A stretch of 64,000 bases of DNA, taken from Streptomyces sp. NBC_00620 (GTDB lineage Bacteria > Actinomycetota > Actinomycetes > Streptomycetales > Streptomycetaceae). The number at the start of each line of letters is the position of its first letter. Position 1 is the stretch's first letter. The notes under the pieces are model-generated. The model had not been told where the DNA came from, made no database searches, and worked only from the letters and a program-made list of their open reading frames with translations. This document shows positions 38,859 through 62,617 of this stretch, piece after piece. Location of the stretch: assembly GCF_026341825.1 (NCBI RefSeq), contig NZ_JAPENY010000002.1, positions 248,001 to 312,000 on the forward strand, read 5' to 3'. Made by a program: the position numbers and the translations under genes.

Positions 38859-39034
38859 GCCTATGACGGTACTGGTCACATATGAAGCGGTCCTGCCGTG
38901 AGAGGGGACAAAGAACGTCATCGTGGCTTGTTGTGAGGTAACCCACACGGGCGGTGTCGGCTCGCCCGTATGGGTTGTTCTTTCCGATTCACGGCTTCAT
39001 CGGGAGCAGGACTCACGACGCGCATGCCGGTTGA

Positions 39035-39062
39035 TTGACCGCGAGACACCGTGGACTAAAGT
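39035..39062 (+). promoter_or_regulatory. Candidate sigma-70-type promoter for the division cluster
   Basis: TTGACC (39035-39040) and TAAAGT (39057-39062) are 16 bases apart, about 245 bases before the rsmH start. No mraZ lies between 38859 and 39307, so this long leader is the likely start of the dcw transcript. Confidence 0.6.
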
Positions 39063-39089
39063 GACGCGAAGCGGGAGGCGAGGCTCTCC

Positions 39090-39150
39090 CTGCTGGACTG
39101 CTTTCCCCCGGAAACCCGGCGATTTTCCGGCGTTTCCCCACGTGCGCGGC
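39090..39150 (+). ncRNA. Candidate mraW leader RNA motif
   Basis: The rsmH leader contains CTTTCCCC followed by a bulged hairpin (GGAAACCCGG pairing with CCGGCGTTTCC, loop CGATTTT, 39110-39137) and then CCACG. An mraW RNA motif of unknown role is known upstream of this gene in Actinobacteria; I cannot run the covariance search that would settle identity. Confidence 0.4.
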
Positions 39151-39235
39151 GCGTACGTACGGCTCGGCCTCCTCCCGCTCCCGGTCGGCTGACGCCACTC
39201 TCCCGGCGCCAGCGGGCCTCCCCTTCTCCGGGGGT

Positions 39236-39255
39236 CCCCCCAGCGTCAGCTGGGG
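39236..39255 (+). repeat. GC-rich hairpin in the rsmH leader
   Basis: CCCCCAGC-GTCA-GCTGGGGG, with flanking C and G runs, about 50 bases before the rsmH TTG. Similar CCCCCAGC...GCTGGGGG palindromes are scattered in Streptomyces intergenic DNA from my recollection. It could attenuate transcription or be a mobile repeat relic. Confidence 0.5.
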
Positions 39256-39307
39256 GAGGGCGGGGACCCGGCGGTGCGTACTGCCTTGCCGGATCTGAGA
39301 GGGCCCC

Positions 39308-40264
39308 TTGAGCCAGAGTCGACACGTCCCGGTGATGCTCCAGCGGTGCCTGGACATGTTGGCCCCGGCCCTCACCGGGCCCGGAGCCGTCGTCGTCGAC
39401 TGCACCCTGGGACTCGGCGGCCACAGCGAGGCGCTCCTCACCCAGTTCCCCGAGGCCCGTCTCGTGGCCCTGGACCGCGACAAGGAGGCGCTGCGCCTCT
39501 CCGGGGAGCGGCTCGCCCCCTTCGGTGACCGGGCGACCCTCGTGCACGCCGTCTACGACGAACTCCCCGACGTACTCGACCGCCTGGGCATCCCGCGCGT
39601 CCAGGGCATCCTGTTCGACCTGGGTGTCTCCTCCATGCAACTCGACGAGGCGGACCGCGGGTTCGCGTACGCGCAGGACGCTCCGCTCGACATGCGCATG
39701 GACCAGACGACCGGCATGAGCGCCGCCGAGGTGCTCAACACCTACCCGCCGGGCGAACTGGTACGGATCCTGCGGGCGTACGGCGAGGAGAAGCAGGCCA
39801 AGCGGATCGTGTCGGCGGTCGTGCGTGAACGCGCGAAGGAACCCTTCAGCAACAGCGCGCGCCTCGTCGAGCTGATCCGCGACTCGCTTCCCCAGGCCGC
39901 CAAGCGGACCGGCGGCAACCCCGCCAAGCGCACCTTCCAGGCGCTGCGCATCGAGGTCAACGGCGAACTCAGCGTCCTGGAGCAGGCGATCCCCGCGGCC
40001 GTGAAGGTGCTCGCCGTCGGCGGCCGGATCGCCGTTCTGTCGTACCACTCGCTGGAAGACCGGCTGGTCAAGCAGGTGTTCGCGGCCGGCGCCGCCAACA
40101 CGGCGCCGCCCGGCCTGCCGGTCGTGCCCGAGCGCTACCAGCCCCGGCTCAAGCTGCTCACGCGCGGTGCCGAACTTCCCACCGAGGAAGAGGTCGCGGA
40201 GAACCGGCGAGCGGCTCCCGCCCGGCTGCGGGGGGCGCAGCGCATCCGCGAGGAAGCCGAGTGA
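39308..40264 (+). CDS. rsmH: 16S rRNA m4C1402 methyltransferase RsmH (MraW)
   Basis: A 318-residue SAM methyltransferase acting on N4 of C1402 in 16S rRNA. Motifs are [28 protein letters not shown] (SAM site), [32 protein letters not shown] and [18 protein letters not shown] 39308 follows GAGAGGG. It is the first gene of the division and cell wall cluster; mraZ, which usually precedes it, is missing here. After it comes a 276-base gap to ftsL filled by degenerate repeats. Confidence 0.95.
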
Positions 40265-40286
40265 GGCGCGGGGAGAGGGAGGACGA

Positions 40287-40570
40287 GTGAGTCGGAAACC
40301 CGAACTCGCGAGGTCGGGAGAGTGGGACATCCCAACTCGCGGGCCGCGACTCGGTGCGGCATCCAAACTCACGGGACCGAGTGGGTTGGGGATCCAGACG
40401 CGTTGTCGGCGTCCGGGTAGGACATCCGAACTCACGGAGCGGAGCGAGTCGATGATCCCGGCCCGCGAGGCGACATGGGTGGGAGATTCGAACTCGCGGC
40501 GCGGCCGCGAGTCGGGAAACCGAACCCGCAGGGAGGGCGCGTGAGCAGGAAACCCGAACTGAGAGGGCGG
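40287..40570 (+). repeat. Degenerate 31-32-bp tandem repeat array between rsmH and ftsL
   Basis: Cores of the form AACTCrCG occur at 40303, 40334, 40366, 40429, 40491, with weaker ones near 40397, 40460, 40523 and at 40557. That is eight or nine units at 31-34 base spacing. The consensus is roughly GAGTsGGACATCCgAACTCG then CGGgcCG. Each unit has internal dyad symmetry (GAGT-nGG...CCn-ACTC). The first unit, GTGAGTCGGAAACCCGAACT, is almost the same as the ftsL start, GTGAGCAGGAAACCCGAACT. The array keeps an 85-codon frame open (GTG 40287 to TGA 40544) that overlaps the ftsL GTG, but third-position GC is low, so I treat it as repeat DNA or a leader ORF rather than a gene. Confidence 0.8.
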
Positions 40571-41080
40571 GCCGCCAAGCTCGCCCGGCTTCTCCCGGCA
40601 GGTGCCGGGACGGCCGCCCGTACCCCCTTCGTCCTGCTGGTCGTGCTCCTGCTCGGCGGCGGCCTCATCGGGCTCCTCGTGCTGAACTCCGCGCTCAGCG
40701 CAGGGTCGTTCCAGCTCGACGACCTGCAGAGGGACACCAAGAGCCTCACCGACGAGGAGCAGGCGCTCCAGCGGGACGTGGACGCCTACGCCGCCCCCGA
40801 CGCCCTCCAGCGCCGAGCCCGCGAACTGGGCATGGTCCCCGGCGGCGACCCGGCCTTCCTCAACCCGGACGGCACCGTCAAGGGCGTCCCGGGAGCAGCC
40901 GCCCAGCAGTCCTCCGCACGTACCCCGGTGGTGCGCCCGCCCGAAGTCCTCGCCCCCGCGCCGAGCCCGACGCCGACCGCGGTCCCAACGCCCACCCCCA
41001 CGCCGTCCACGGCCGCCGCCTCCGCGCAGCCGCCGGCGGCCACCCCGTCCGCACAGCCCTCCACAATCCCCGGCAGGTGA
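40541..41080 (+). CDS. ftsL: Cell division protein FtsL
   Basis: A 179-residue bitopic division protein. There is a basic N-terminus (MSRKPELRGRAAKLARLL), one TM helix (residues ~29-51), then a short coiled coil (LDDLQRDTKSLTDEEQALQRDVDAYAAPDALQRRARELGM) and a long Pro/Ala/Ser/Thr-rich tail (TPTAVPTPTPTPST). It should work with FtsQ/DivIC and FtsW/FtsI at the septum. GTG 40541 has GGGAGGG upstream, overlaps the stop of the repeat-derived ORF and gives the actinobacterial N-terminus. The stop overlaps the ftsI GTG by four bases. Confidence 0.9.
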   Translation: MSRKPELRGRAAKLARLLPAGAGTAARTPFVLLVVLLLGGGLIGLLVLNSALSAGSFQLDDLQRDTKSLTDEEQALQRDVDAYAAPDALQRRARELGMVPGGDPAFLNPDGTVKGVPGAAAQQSSARTPVVRPPEVLAPAPSPTPTAVPTPTPTPSTAAASAQPPAATPSAQPSTIPGR

Positions 41081-43038
41081 CGGAAGTGTCCGACAGGGAA
41101 CCGCCGCGCCGCCGAGTGCCCGGCCCCGCCAGGCCCGTACGACCCTCAGGCCAGCGGCGTCCGGACCCCGGCGCCCGCCCCGCGCGCCGCCCGGGCGCGC
41201 CGAGGCCCGCCGGCCCCCGTGTCATCCGGCTCGGCAGCCCGCGCCCCCGGCTCCGTATGGTCAGTCTCGCGCTGACCCTGGTGATGATCGCCTTCGTCGT
41301 GCGGCTGCTCCAGGTGCAGGCCGTGGACGCGAGCACGTATGTCGCCAAGGCCGAGCAGAACCGGTACGTCGGGCGCACTCTGGCTGCCGAACGCGGCGGG
41401 ATCACGGACCGCAACGGCGTCGAGCTGGCGACCAGCGTGGACGCGTACGACATCACGGCCGACCCCACGATGTTCACGCAGAAGGCCACGAAGACGGCGG
41501 ACGCGCCCGAGCAGGCCGCGGCGCTGCTCGCCCCGATCCTCGGCCAGGACGCGGAGAAGGTCACCAAGAAGCTGAAGACGAAGAACACGCGCTACACCCT
41601 GCTCGCGAACCGTCAGACCCCTCAGGTCTGGAAGCAGATCAAGGACATCAGGAGCACGCTCGCGGCCAAGGCGGAGACCGACCCGAGCACGGTAAACGTC
41701 CTCGCGGGCATCGTCGCGGTCCCCGCCAGCAAGCGCGTGTACCCGAACGGAGATCTCGCCGCCGGGATACTGGGTTGGGTCAACGCCGACGGCAAGGGCG
41801 GCGGCGGGCTCGAACAGGAGTTGAACAAGGAACTGGCCGGCAAGGACGGCGAGATCCGGTACGCGCAGTCCGGCGGCCTCCAGGTGCCCACCGCGGGTTC
41901 CACCGAGACCCCCGCCGTGGCCGGCTCCGACATCGAGCTGACCATCGACCGTGACATCCAGTGGGCCGCGCAGAACGCCATCACCGAGCAGGTGAAGGAG
42001 TCGAAGGCGGACAGCGGGTACGTGATAGTGCAGGACACGCAGACCGGCGAGATCCTCGCGATGGCCAACTCGCCCGGCTTCGACCCGAACGACCTCTCCC
42101 AGGCCGACCCGGCGGCGCTCGGCAACGCGGCCGTCCAGGACGCGTACGAGCCCGGCTCCACCGCCAAGGTCATGTCGATGGCCGCCGTGCTGGAGGAGAA
42201 CGTCGCCACGCCCGCGACGCATGTGGTCGTGCCCAACCGGCTGCAGCGCGGCGACCGGCTCTTCCAGGACGACATCGACCACCCGACCTGGAGCCTGACG
42301 CTCAACGGCGTGCTCGCCAAGTCCAGCAACATCGGCACCATCCTGGCGGTCGGCCAGCTCGGCAAGACGCAGACGGAGGCCAACAAGGTCCTCTACTCGT
42401 ACCTGCGCAAGTTCGGCATCGGCGGCAACACCGGGCTGGACTTCCCCGGCGAGACGAAGGGCATCCTCGCGGCCCCCGAGGACTGGTCGACCTCGCAGCA
42501 GTACACGATTCCTTTCGGCCAGGGAGTGTCGCTCAGCGCGCTGCAGGCGGCCTCCGTCTACTCGACGATCGCCAACGGCGGCGTACGGATCGAGCCGACT
42601 CTGGTGCGCGGTACGGAAGGTGCCGACGGCCGCTTCACGCCCGCCTCCGAGCCCAAGAAGACAAGGGTCGTCAGCGAGAAGACGGCGAAGACCCTCGCCC
42701 AGATGCTGGAGTCCGTCGTGGACGACGAGCAGGGCACCGGCACCAAGGCGCGCATTCCCGGCTACCGGGTCGCGGGCAAGACGGGTACGGCCAACCGCGT
42801 GGATCCGGCCACCGGCAAGTACAACGGCTACACCTCGTCGTTCGCCGGATTCGCACCCGCCGACAACCCGCGGATCACCGTGTACTGCGCGATCCAGAAC
42901 GCCACCAAGGGCAGCTACTTCGGAGGCCAGATCTGTGGACCCATCTACAAGGAGGTCATGGAGTTCGCCCTGAAGACACTTCAGGTACCGCCCACCGGGG
43001 CCAAGGCCGCGAATCTCCCCGTGACCTTCACGCCCTGA
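41077..43038 (+). CDS. ftsI: Septal peptidoglycan transpeptidase FtsI (PBP3)
   Basis: A 653-residue class B penicillin-binding protein that cross-links septal peptidoglycan outside the membrane. The cytoplasmic N-terminus is Pro/Arg-rich, with one TM near residues 62-82 and then the dimerisation domain (ERGGITDRNGVELA). Transpeptidase motifs are AYEPGSTAKVM (Ser-x-x-Lys), KSSNIGT (Ser-x-Asn) and AGKTGTANR (Lys-Thr-Gly). GTG 41077 overlaps the ftsL stop by four bases. In Streptomyces it is needed for sporulation septa rather than hyphal viability. Confidence 0.95.
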   Translation: MTEVSDREPPRRRVPGPARPVRPSGQRRPDPGARPARRPGAPRPAGPRVIRLGSPRPRLRMVSLALTLVMIAFVVRLLQVQAVDASTYVAKAEQNRYVGRTLAAERGGITDRNGVELATSVDAYDITADPTMFTQKATKTADAPEQAAALLAPILGQDAEKVTKKLKTKNTRYTLLANRQTPQVWKQIKDIRSTLAAKAETDPSTVNVLAGIVAVPASKRVYPNGDLAAGILGWVNADGKGGGGLEQELNKELAGKDGEIRYAQSGGLQVPTAGSTETPAVAGSDIELTIDRDIQWAAQNAITEQVKESKADSGYVIVQDTQTGEILAMANSPGFDPNDLSQADPAALGNAAVQDAYEPGSTAKVMSMAAVLEENVATPATHVVVPNRLQRGDRLFQDDIDHPTWSLTLNGVLAKSSNIGTILAVGQLGKTQTEANKVLYSYLRKFGIGGNTGLDFPGETKGILAAPEDWSTSQQYTIPFGQGVSLSALQAASVYSTIANGGVRIEPTLVRGTEGADGRFTPASEPKKTRVVSEKTAKTLAQMLESVVDDEQGTGTKARIPGYRVAGKTGTANRVDPATGKYNGYTSSFAGFAPADNPRITVYCAIQNATKGSYFGGQICGPIYKEVMEFALKTLQVPPTGAKAANLPVTFTP

Positions 43039-57607: not shown

Positions 57608-57842
57608 GTCCTCAAACGCCGGACGGGCTGAAGCCACAGCCTCCGTGGGTGGGTGGGGGATCGGGATGGCGCTGTCTTGTCCTCGAACGCCGGACGGGCT
57701 GAAACCGCGGCTCCCATGGGTGGGTGGGGGATCGGGATGGTGCCGTCTTGTCCTCGAACGCCGGACGGGCTGAAACCACGGCCCCCGTGGGTGGGTGGGG
57801 GATCGGGATGGCGCCGTCTCGTCCTCGAACGCCGGGCGGGTT
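57608..57842. repeat. 71-bp tandem repeat
   Basis: GTCCTCrAACGCCGGACGGG starts at 57608, 57679, 57750 and (partial, as GCCGGGCGGG) 57821, a 71-base period. Each unit continues CTGAAnCC, a GTGGGTGGGTGGGGGATCGG run and GATGGnGCCGTCT. Three full units plus a partial one merge into the ileS terminator hairpin. The CCTCAAACGCCGGACGGGCTG motif is common in Streptomyces intergenic DNA from my recollection. Several frames stay open through it only because of repetition. Confidence 0.85.
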
Positions 57843-61612: not shown

Positions 61613-62617
61613 ATGGTGGCGAAGAAGACCGCCGTACAGCAGTCGGCGTCCGGCAGATCCACGGGTCCGGCGGCCAAGGATGTGGGTGGGAAGAAGAGCG
61701 CGCAGGGGGCACCGGCGGAGGGCGGTGCCGCCGCCAAGCCGGTGAAGAACGCCTCCAAGACGGCTGCCAAGGCCTCCAAAGCGGCCGCCAGGAAACCGGC
61801 CACTTCCAAGGCGGCGGCTTCGAAGACGGCCACCTCTGAGGCGGCTGACGCGAAAACGGTCGCTCCGAAGGCGGCTGTTTCGAAAACGGCGGCCAAGAAG
61901 GCCACCGCGAAGAAGGCCCCTGCCAAGAAGGCGGTGGCCAGGAAGACCGTCGGGAAGAAGGCCGCGGTGGCGGAGGCCGTTCCGGAGGAGACCGGGGTGG
62001 CGAAGGGCGGTACTAGGAAGAAGGCCGGTGCGAAGCGCGCCGCCAAGAAGAGCAGCAGTACGGCGAAGACGGCGGTCGCTTCCGCGGCCCAGGGCGCGGC
62101 CCAGGCCGCGATGACGACGGGAGCCACGACGGTGGTTGCGAAGAAGACTCCTGGTACGGCCACGGCGGCGAAGAAGCCCACCGCTGTTCCCAAGGCGCGG
62201 GTCTCCGCGCTGGTGGAGCCCGGCGAGCTCGCGGTGCGCCCCGGCGAGGACCCCTGGACCCCGGAAGAGGTAGCGGATGCGCGCGCGGAGCTCCAGTCCG
62301 AGGCGCTGCGGCTGAGCTCCGAGATCTCCGCGTCCGAGGAGGCGCTCGCGGGCCTGATGCGCGACTCCGGCGACGGCGCGGGCGACGACCAGGCGGACAC
62401 CGGCACCAAGAACATCACGCGCGAGTCCGAGATGGCGCTCAACGCCAACGCGCGCGAGATGCTGGAGCAGACCGAGCGGGCGCTGCAACGCCTCGACGCG
62501 GGCACGTACGGACTCTGCGAGAACTGCGGCAACCCCATCGGCAAGGCGCGGATGCAGGCCTTCCCGCGGGCCACCCTGTGCGTCGAGTGCAAGCAGAAGC
62601 AGGAACGCCGCTACTGA
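61613..62617 (+). CDS. DksA/TraR-type zinc-finger protein with histone H1-like N-terminus
   Basis: A 334-residue two-part protein. Residues ~1-195 are Lys/Ala-rich with repeats such as AAKKATAKKAPAKKAVARK, like histone H1 or the tail of actinobacterial HU, and should bind DNA or RNA. Residues ~205-334 are DksA/TraR-like: coiled-coil helices (WTPEEVADARAELQSEALRL) and a four-Cys zinc finger (LCENCGNPIG and LCVECKQ). It lacks the canonical DxxDxA tip as far as I can see. It may couple nucleoid compaction to RNA polymerase control. ATG 61613 has GAAGGGG upstream. Confidence 0.87.
   Translation: MVAKKTAVQQSASGRSTGPAAKDVGGKKSAQGAPAEGGAAAKPVKNASKTAAKASKAAARKPATSKAAASKTATSEAADAKTVAPKAAVSKTAAKKATAKKAPAKKAVARKTVGKKAAVAEAVPEETGVAKGGTRKKAGAKRAAKKSSSTAKTAVASAAQGAAQAAMTTGATTVVAKKTPGTATAAKKPTAVPKARVSALVEPGELAVRPGEDPWTPEEVADARAELQSEALRLSSEISASEEALAGLMRDSGDGAGDDQADTGTKNITRESEMALNANAREMLEQTERALQRLDAGTYGLCENCGNPIGKARMQAFPRATLCVECKQKQERRY

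Follow-up and report, generated by a model that had tools for sequence, protein, structure and literature searches.

A degenerate array of ftsL-start copies in the rsmH-ftsL gap of Streptomyces as a probable translated spacer

The 276-nt gap between rsmH and ftsL in the window (the whole stretch of Streptomyces DNA that we analysed, 64,000 nucleotides) is filled by a degenerate tandem array whose units resemble the start of ftsL itself. Two leader frames cross this gap, and rsmH, a 9-codon frame, an 85-codon frame and ftsL are joined by three serial 4-nt overlaps, at 40261, 40287 and 40541. Comparison with related junctions makes it probable that the gap is a translated spacer, in which tandem duplication of the ftsL start is tolerated while translational coupling passes via the leader ORFs. 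The arrangement suggests that ribosomes cross the filler by means of tiny throw-away frames, each with a stop codon that overlaps the next start.

The array and the frames that cross it

The array extends over 40289-40561 and consists of eight degenerate upstream units and a ninth copy formed by the ftsL start (Table 1), in agreement with the eight or nine units that a preliminary description of this DNA had reported. The unit core is 19 nt long, and successive steps are 31, 32, 31, 32, 31, 31, 32 and 34 nt; the upstream units follow each other at 31-32-nt steps, and the ftsL-start copy lies 34 nt beyond unit 8. Repeat searches returned 28-nt copies beginning at 40289, 40320, 40352, 40415, 40477 and 40543 (spacings of 31, 32, 63, 62 and 66 nt), a 21-nt repeat family added the copy at 40509, and the weaker units at 40383 and 40446, recognized when the sequence was read in register, split the 63- and 62-nt steps. 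Five of the six cores named previously contain AACTC (at 40303, 40334, 40366, 40429 and 40491), whereas the one near 40557 reads AACTG. Autocorrelation peaked at lag 63 (0.468) and lag 31 (0.414), and then at lags 94 and 32, and its observed maximum was reached by 0 of 500 dinucleotide shuffles. Tandem Repeats Finder, at a score of at least 30, gave no row within 40265-40575, the units being too degenerate for it.

The likeness of unit 1 to the ftsL start, also pointed out in the preliminary description, amounts to 87% identity over 31 nt when the SD of the unit is included (repeat family D3), and the first 21 nt of ftsL (core 40543-40561) form the ninth unit copy. The unit consensus is a dyad. 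In a DNA search, the 311-nt stretch was found at one place in its own genome. A unit weight matrix, hand-seeded and iterated on the same junctions, gave 7 scattered hits elsewhere versus 7 inside the junction when the 64-kb window was scanned on both strands. None of 114,023 rsmH positions reached a score of 5 with this matrix, a control that bears on chance and not on shared descent. Short matches (25-40 nt, 83-96%) to 40431-40474 were present in at least 14 Streptomyces genomes among the matches listed; in the three genomes compared (G065, G076 and G080) they sit away from rsmH-ftsL, and they possibly represent a chance likeness to another gene. Other tandem repeats of the window include a 71-bp unit at 57608-57840 (3.3 copies, 90% matches) and overlapping repeats of 15, 21 and 30 bp at 61751-61932.

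Table 1. Coordinates of the genes, leader ORFs, SD-like sequences and repeat units at the rsmH-ftsL junction of the window
Feature	Position	Strand	Basis
rsmH (mraW), 16S rRNA methyltransferase	39308..40264	+	Pfam PF01795, 2.9e-112
Leader ORF 1, 9 codons	40261..40290	+	Overlap chain of L001 (-4, -250, 9 codons)
SD-like GGGAGG of unit 1 (putative former ftsL start)	40277..40282	+	Sequence
Leader ORF 2, 85 codons, through the array	40287..40544	+	No Pfam/PDB match
Unit 1	40289..40307	+	Repeat families D1/D2; weight-matrix hit
Unit 2	40320..40338	+	Repeat search; weight matrix
Unit 3 (weaker)	40352..40370	+	Repeat search; weight matrix
Unit 4 (very degenerate)	40383..40401	+	Register only; below matrix threshold
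Unit 5	40415..40433	+	Repeat search; weight matrix
Unit 6 (very degenerate)	40446..40464	+	Register only; below matrix threshold
Unit 7	40477..40495	+	Repeat search; weight matrix
Unit 8	40509..40527	+	Repeat family D2; weight matrix
ftsL SD GGGAGGG	40531..40537	+	Sequence
ftsL	40541..41080	+	Pfam DivIC PF04977, 9.5e-7, 29.0 bits vs cut-off 28.9

As the preliminary description had stated, the whole array lies within one open frame that ends in a GTGA overlap with ftsL: the TGA of leader ORF 2 (40542-40544) and the GTG of ftsL (40541-40543) overlap by 4 nt. Leader ORF 1, absent from that description, overlaps the rsmH stop codon with its GTG and the next GTG, at 40287, with its TGA, in both cases by 4 nt. 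The last codons of rsmH contain an SD-like GAGGAAG (40250-40256) upstream of GTG 40261. The junction shows one trait of a translationally coupled gene pair, namely genes on the same strand with overlapping or close stop and start codons. A sigma-70-like site (TTGACC, 16 nt, TAAAGT; shuffle mean 0.0) was noted at 39035-39062, upstream of rsmH.

Variety of the spacer and origin of the array

The relatives were drawn from searches of 61, 392 and 296 genomes, 80 named loci and 100 fetched stretches. The resulting 270 loci represented 211 distinct junctions of rsmH and ftsL, most of them from Streptomyces, and the frequencies given here describe this sampled set and not the genus, because many junctions were chosen by their likeness to the window. 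The ftsL start was assigned by its motif in 186 of the 211 junctions and estimated in the remaining 25. The gap ranges from -17 to 814 nt, with a median of 63 nt; it is 100 nt or longer in 42 junctions and 200 nt or longer in 13.

The array as such is not conserved across the relatives: the number of units varies from 0 to 8. At least one upstream unit was above score in 83 of the 186 motif-start junctions, and three close relatives (L032, L035 and L036), in which ftsL starts at +22, have a 22-nt gap and no array. In the rsmH tree of 127 rows, the window belongs to a clade of 8 rows (support 99/96), the spacers of which measure 276, 276, 282, 216 and 215 nt in five rows and 22 nt in the other three. 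The +22 position is occupied in unit 1 of the window by a GTG following a G-rich SD-like stretch, matching the ftsL start of L032, L035 and L036; the GGGAGG of unit 1 matches the ftsL SD of these three in position. The same combination is present at +22 in the array-bearing L113, L038, L175, L003, L143 and L174. Since the GTG at +22 is shared by unit 1 and ftsL of the array-less sisters, unit 1 looks like a former ftsL start, and the array like what separates the former start from the present one. The earlier proposal that the ftsL start had been amplified gains support from this.

Upstream of ftsL, its first 30 nt recur as a copy (p<=0.01) in 42 of 129 junctions of at least 45 nt, at -33 or -34 in 35 of these 42, and 26 of 57 gaps of at least 90 nt were periodic at p<=0.01. 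Other, unrelated repeats occupy rsmH-ftsL in L083, L084 and L104. The gap of L083 (Streptomyces sp. Ru71) is 814 nt long and repeat-rich (best lag 39), and a single open frame of 273 codons connects the rsmH stop (-4) with the ftsL start (+4), as happens in 8.5% of shuffles. The 313-nt gap of L227 (G267) carries a cleaner array that has a consensus of its own, about ten units of near 30-31 nt and a best lag of 30, and it is bridged by a frame of 106 codons.

Direct overlap of the two genes is found in several places. Among the 25 junctions with an estimated start, the -4 frame, opened by the start codon on the rsmH stop, remains open into ftsL in 9, and in 7 of those (L021, L022, L023, L028, L030, L088 and L245) ftsL was taken to start at -4; in the rest of the 25, the -4 leader frame ends at +4 in 8, at +11 in one and earlier in 7. 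A direct -4 start is present in outgroup Streptomyces, and in other actinomycetes the -4 frame is open into ftsL at 8 of 20 loci. In E. coli K-12 (NC_000913), rsmH and ftsL also share 4 nt (rsmH end 91035, ftsL start 91032), but the overlap is direct, without the leader ORFs or repeats of the window.

We infer that direct overlap is the earlier state, with the ftsL start on the rsmH stop codon, and that the start was then moved or copied downstream while the old one was kept as the opening of a leader ORF. In the clade of the window, a downstream shift of the start would have been followed by tandem duplication in 31-34-nt steps. The duplicated piece would comprise the start codon and the G-rich LKGR codons that follow it, which resemble an SD and may act as one for the next copy.

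Overlap chains and the length of the spacer

Of 186 junctions, 181 have a start codon that overlaps the stop codon of rsmH. Within 14 nt of the -4 start, an SD-like 4-mer is present in 206 of 211 junctions, compared with 7 of 211 at a single control position within rsmH, an excess for which the rsmH codons may account in part. We defined a strict chain as a series of frames that begins with the start codon on the rsmH stop and proceeds by 4-nt or 1-nt overlaps only. Such chains extend to ftsL in 165 of 184 junctions, versus 122.9 expected from gap shuffles, and the excess is clear in long gaps: 19 of 23 versus 9.3 expected at 100-199 nt, and 13 of 13 (two of them from one species) versus 3.2 expected at 200 nt or more. 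In three of these longest gaps (L003, L143 and L174), the chain consists of frames of 9, 53 and 12 codons, and in L175, which is one base longer, of two frames with the end still at +4. Of the 19 junctions with no strict chain, five (L054, L062, L075, L158 and L202) have a -4 frame that is open into ftsL itself.

The junctions are not independent of each other, because gap lengths and starts are inherited, and we used thinning by rsmH identity alongside clustering of the gaps. After thinning to rsmH identity below 95%, chains were present in 59 of 71 gaps of at least 50 nt (38.6 expected) and in 17 of 20 gaps of at least 100 nt (5.9 expected). The coarsest clustering, at 65% gap identity, reduced 118 junctions to 10 clusters, with 7.9 chains versus 4.1 expected. 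Among the 118 gaps of at least 50 nt, ftsL is reached in 107 when the true frame is read, compared with 57 and 64 for the two alternative frames. Of the 13 gaps of at least 200 nt, 10 also succeed in the third frame, in part owing to the +22 frame that it includes. Chains were found in 0 of 11 of the remaining co-directional junctions of the window (rough gene calls), a weak control, since the start overlaps the upstream stop in only one of the 11; the ftsI-murE junction was dropped as a control because of its ambiguous murE start.

The length of the spacer determines where a -4 frame that reaches ftsL can end. With a length of 1 mod 3, the frame meets the TGA of GTGA; with 0 mod 3, it needs the TAG of GTGAGTAG; with 2 mod 3, it would enter ftsL in frame. 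Gap lengths of 0, 1 and 2 mod 3 occur in 80, 79 and 27 of the 186 junctions, and the out-of-frame TAG in ftsL codons 2-3 (+6..+8) is present in 59 of 80, 9 of 79 and 10 of 27 of them, respectively. Where the frame arrives at ftsL with a length of 0 mod 3 (n=62), it stops at +8 in 56 junctions and at +11 in 6. In 15 tree-independent pairs that differ in length class and in which the frame arrives, taken from a tree built without the rsmH end, TAG differed in the expected direction in 8.8 on average, in the opposite direction in 0.0, and not at all in 6.2 (median p 0.004, range 0.004-0.039). Without the restriction to arriving frames, 23 pairs gave 9.8, 0.4 and 12.8. The codon that makes the TAG, AGT, accounts for 65 of 156 AGT plus AGC at ftsL codon 2 (42%), compared with 6% at later ftsL codons and 17% in rsmH. 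Spacer length mod 3 and the out-of-frame stop are associated, and the frame prediction that links them held for the sequences compared.

The same data bear on whether the array does anything at all. It might be a neutral minisatellite, grown without function at a slippage-prone place, with open frames that are by-products of high G+C content and of the duplicated GTGA. The variable number of degenerate units, the differences between sister species and the unrelated repeats that occupy the same place in three junctions are what such growth would produce, and the array may well have arisen in this neutral way. However, neutral growth leaves the kept route unexplained: chains and the true frame exceed the shuffles and the other two frames, and length class and TAG are associated in independent pairs. 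We consider a purely neutral array unlikely.

The most probable explanation of the gap is a translated spacer. On leaving rsmH, ribosomes would first restart at GTG 40261, next at GTG 40287 and finally at the ftsL GTG at 40541. Selection would act to keep this route open, through the frame and the positions of its stop and start codons, and would not act on peptide, RNA fold or unit number. Of the roles that the preliminary description had offered for the array, that of a leader frame coupled to ftsL by overlap is the one favoured by the chains, the true frame and the TAG pairs; such a frame might, as proposed there, set the dose of FtsL. The observation made in that description is confirmed, and the interpretation given there is supported in part.

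Structural and protein-level alternatives, and related systems

Stacked RNA hairpins ahead of ftsL, regulating its translation or RNA stability, had also been suggested. The dyad of the unit consensus fits this idea, as does the folding of the window gap, which is better than that of shuffles (z -3.4, or -2.2 with other ends and fewer shuffles); within the set, the excess is greatest in L227 (z -5.2). However, no covariation was detected among 69 distinct upstream units, each pair being matched by at least 157 of 2000 column shuffles, and the mean fold z of 41 gaps was -0.62 versus -0.48 for equal rsmH stretches. A search of 39000-41300 against Rfam gave four matches up to E 5; all lie outside the gap, and none comes close to its gathering score. 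As a conserved feature, hairpins are not supported by these results, and we consider them a very improbable explanation of the array. Structure is not generally enriched, but a structural role in single species is possible: the fold excess of the window and L227 allows for a local effect on ftsL translation, and such structure, if it acts on ftsL, would possibly itself require ribosomes to open it.

Repeated binding of a protein was another of the suggested roles, with the units as sites on one face of the DNA, for example as an operator for the ftsL-ftsI segment. Three helical turns correspond to 31.5 bp, and regular 31-32-bp steps with a dyad in each unit would suit such an arrangement. Against it, many relatives have steps of 33-34 bp, and an upstream unit above score is missing from 103 of 186 junctions; the promoter scan found no promoter-like site in the gap, and the terminator scan found nothing there either. 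An MraZ box array consists of three TGGG boxes 10 nt apart. Boxes of this type (at most 2 mismatches) are at chance level in the window (13 versus a mean of 9.9 by chance), with none in the gap. We regard an array of protein sites as still less probable than hairpins. That the 85-codon frame, though open and provided with an SD and a GTG, encodes a functional small protein is hardly credible, as its product has no Pfam or PDB match, the G+C content of pooled leader ORFs by codon position is 70/70/79% versus 77/46/91% in rsmH of the window, and the changes that separate relatives do not cluster at codon position 3 (14, 9 and 15 in L039/L151).

Translational coupling by a 4-nt stop/start overlap, as treated in the review PMC12548453, includes short ORFs that deliver a ribosome. 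The rsmH-ftsL junction resembles the coupling described there in its co-directional genes, its 4-nt overlaps and short ORFs that would bring ribosomes onward. It differs in that two serial ORFs bridge 276 nt, that degenerate copies of the ftsL start make up these ORFs, and that the length of the spacer is associated with a stop codon in ftsL that is out of frame. Mycobacterial interspersed repetitive units (MIRUs), apparently mobile and present in many places according to section 11 of the same source, also lie at the start codon of an operon gene and carry an ORF coupled at -4 spacing. The repeat ORF of the array likewise overlaps the following gene by 4 nt; however, in contrast to what that section says of MIRUs, the array unit would derive from ftsL itself, and the DNA search with the 311-nt stretch returned one place in the genome instead of dispersed copies. 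Because it was not found dispersed and resembles ftsL itself, we do not class the array as a MIRU. It is best read as a variant of translational coupling that is MIRU-like in effect. The S. coelicolor ftsL gene was reportedly the subject of work by Bennett et al. in 2007. Within the portions of the open-licence PMC literature that were covered, no report of an rsmH-ftsL array or of start-copy relays was found.

A bolder reading, possible but rather doubtful, takes the ftsL-start copies as self-amplifying modules, such that the length of the relay and the number of hand-overs tune the FtsL:RsmH ratio and the choice between AGC and AGT co-evolves with them. If it is true, each copy may supply an SD and a GTG together with an overlapping TGA, resulting in a stepping-stone relay, and the synonymous choice of AGC or AGT at ftsL codon 2 would be that of an out-of-frame stop that ends the relay.

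As to the translated spacer, rsmH-ftsL would represent a natural replicated experiment on translational coupling: the spacer of one junction has been rebuilt often, by duplication and insertion, yet a continuous route of 4-nt overlaps has mostly been kept. It makes testable the idea of leader ORFs that exist solely to carry ribosomes, it might explain why a division gene has a rare codon so early, and it serves as a warning that junk-like repeats within operons may be translated.
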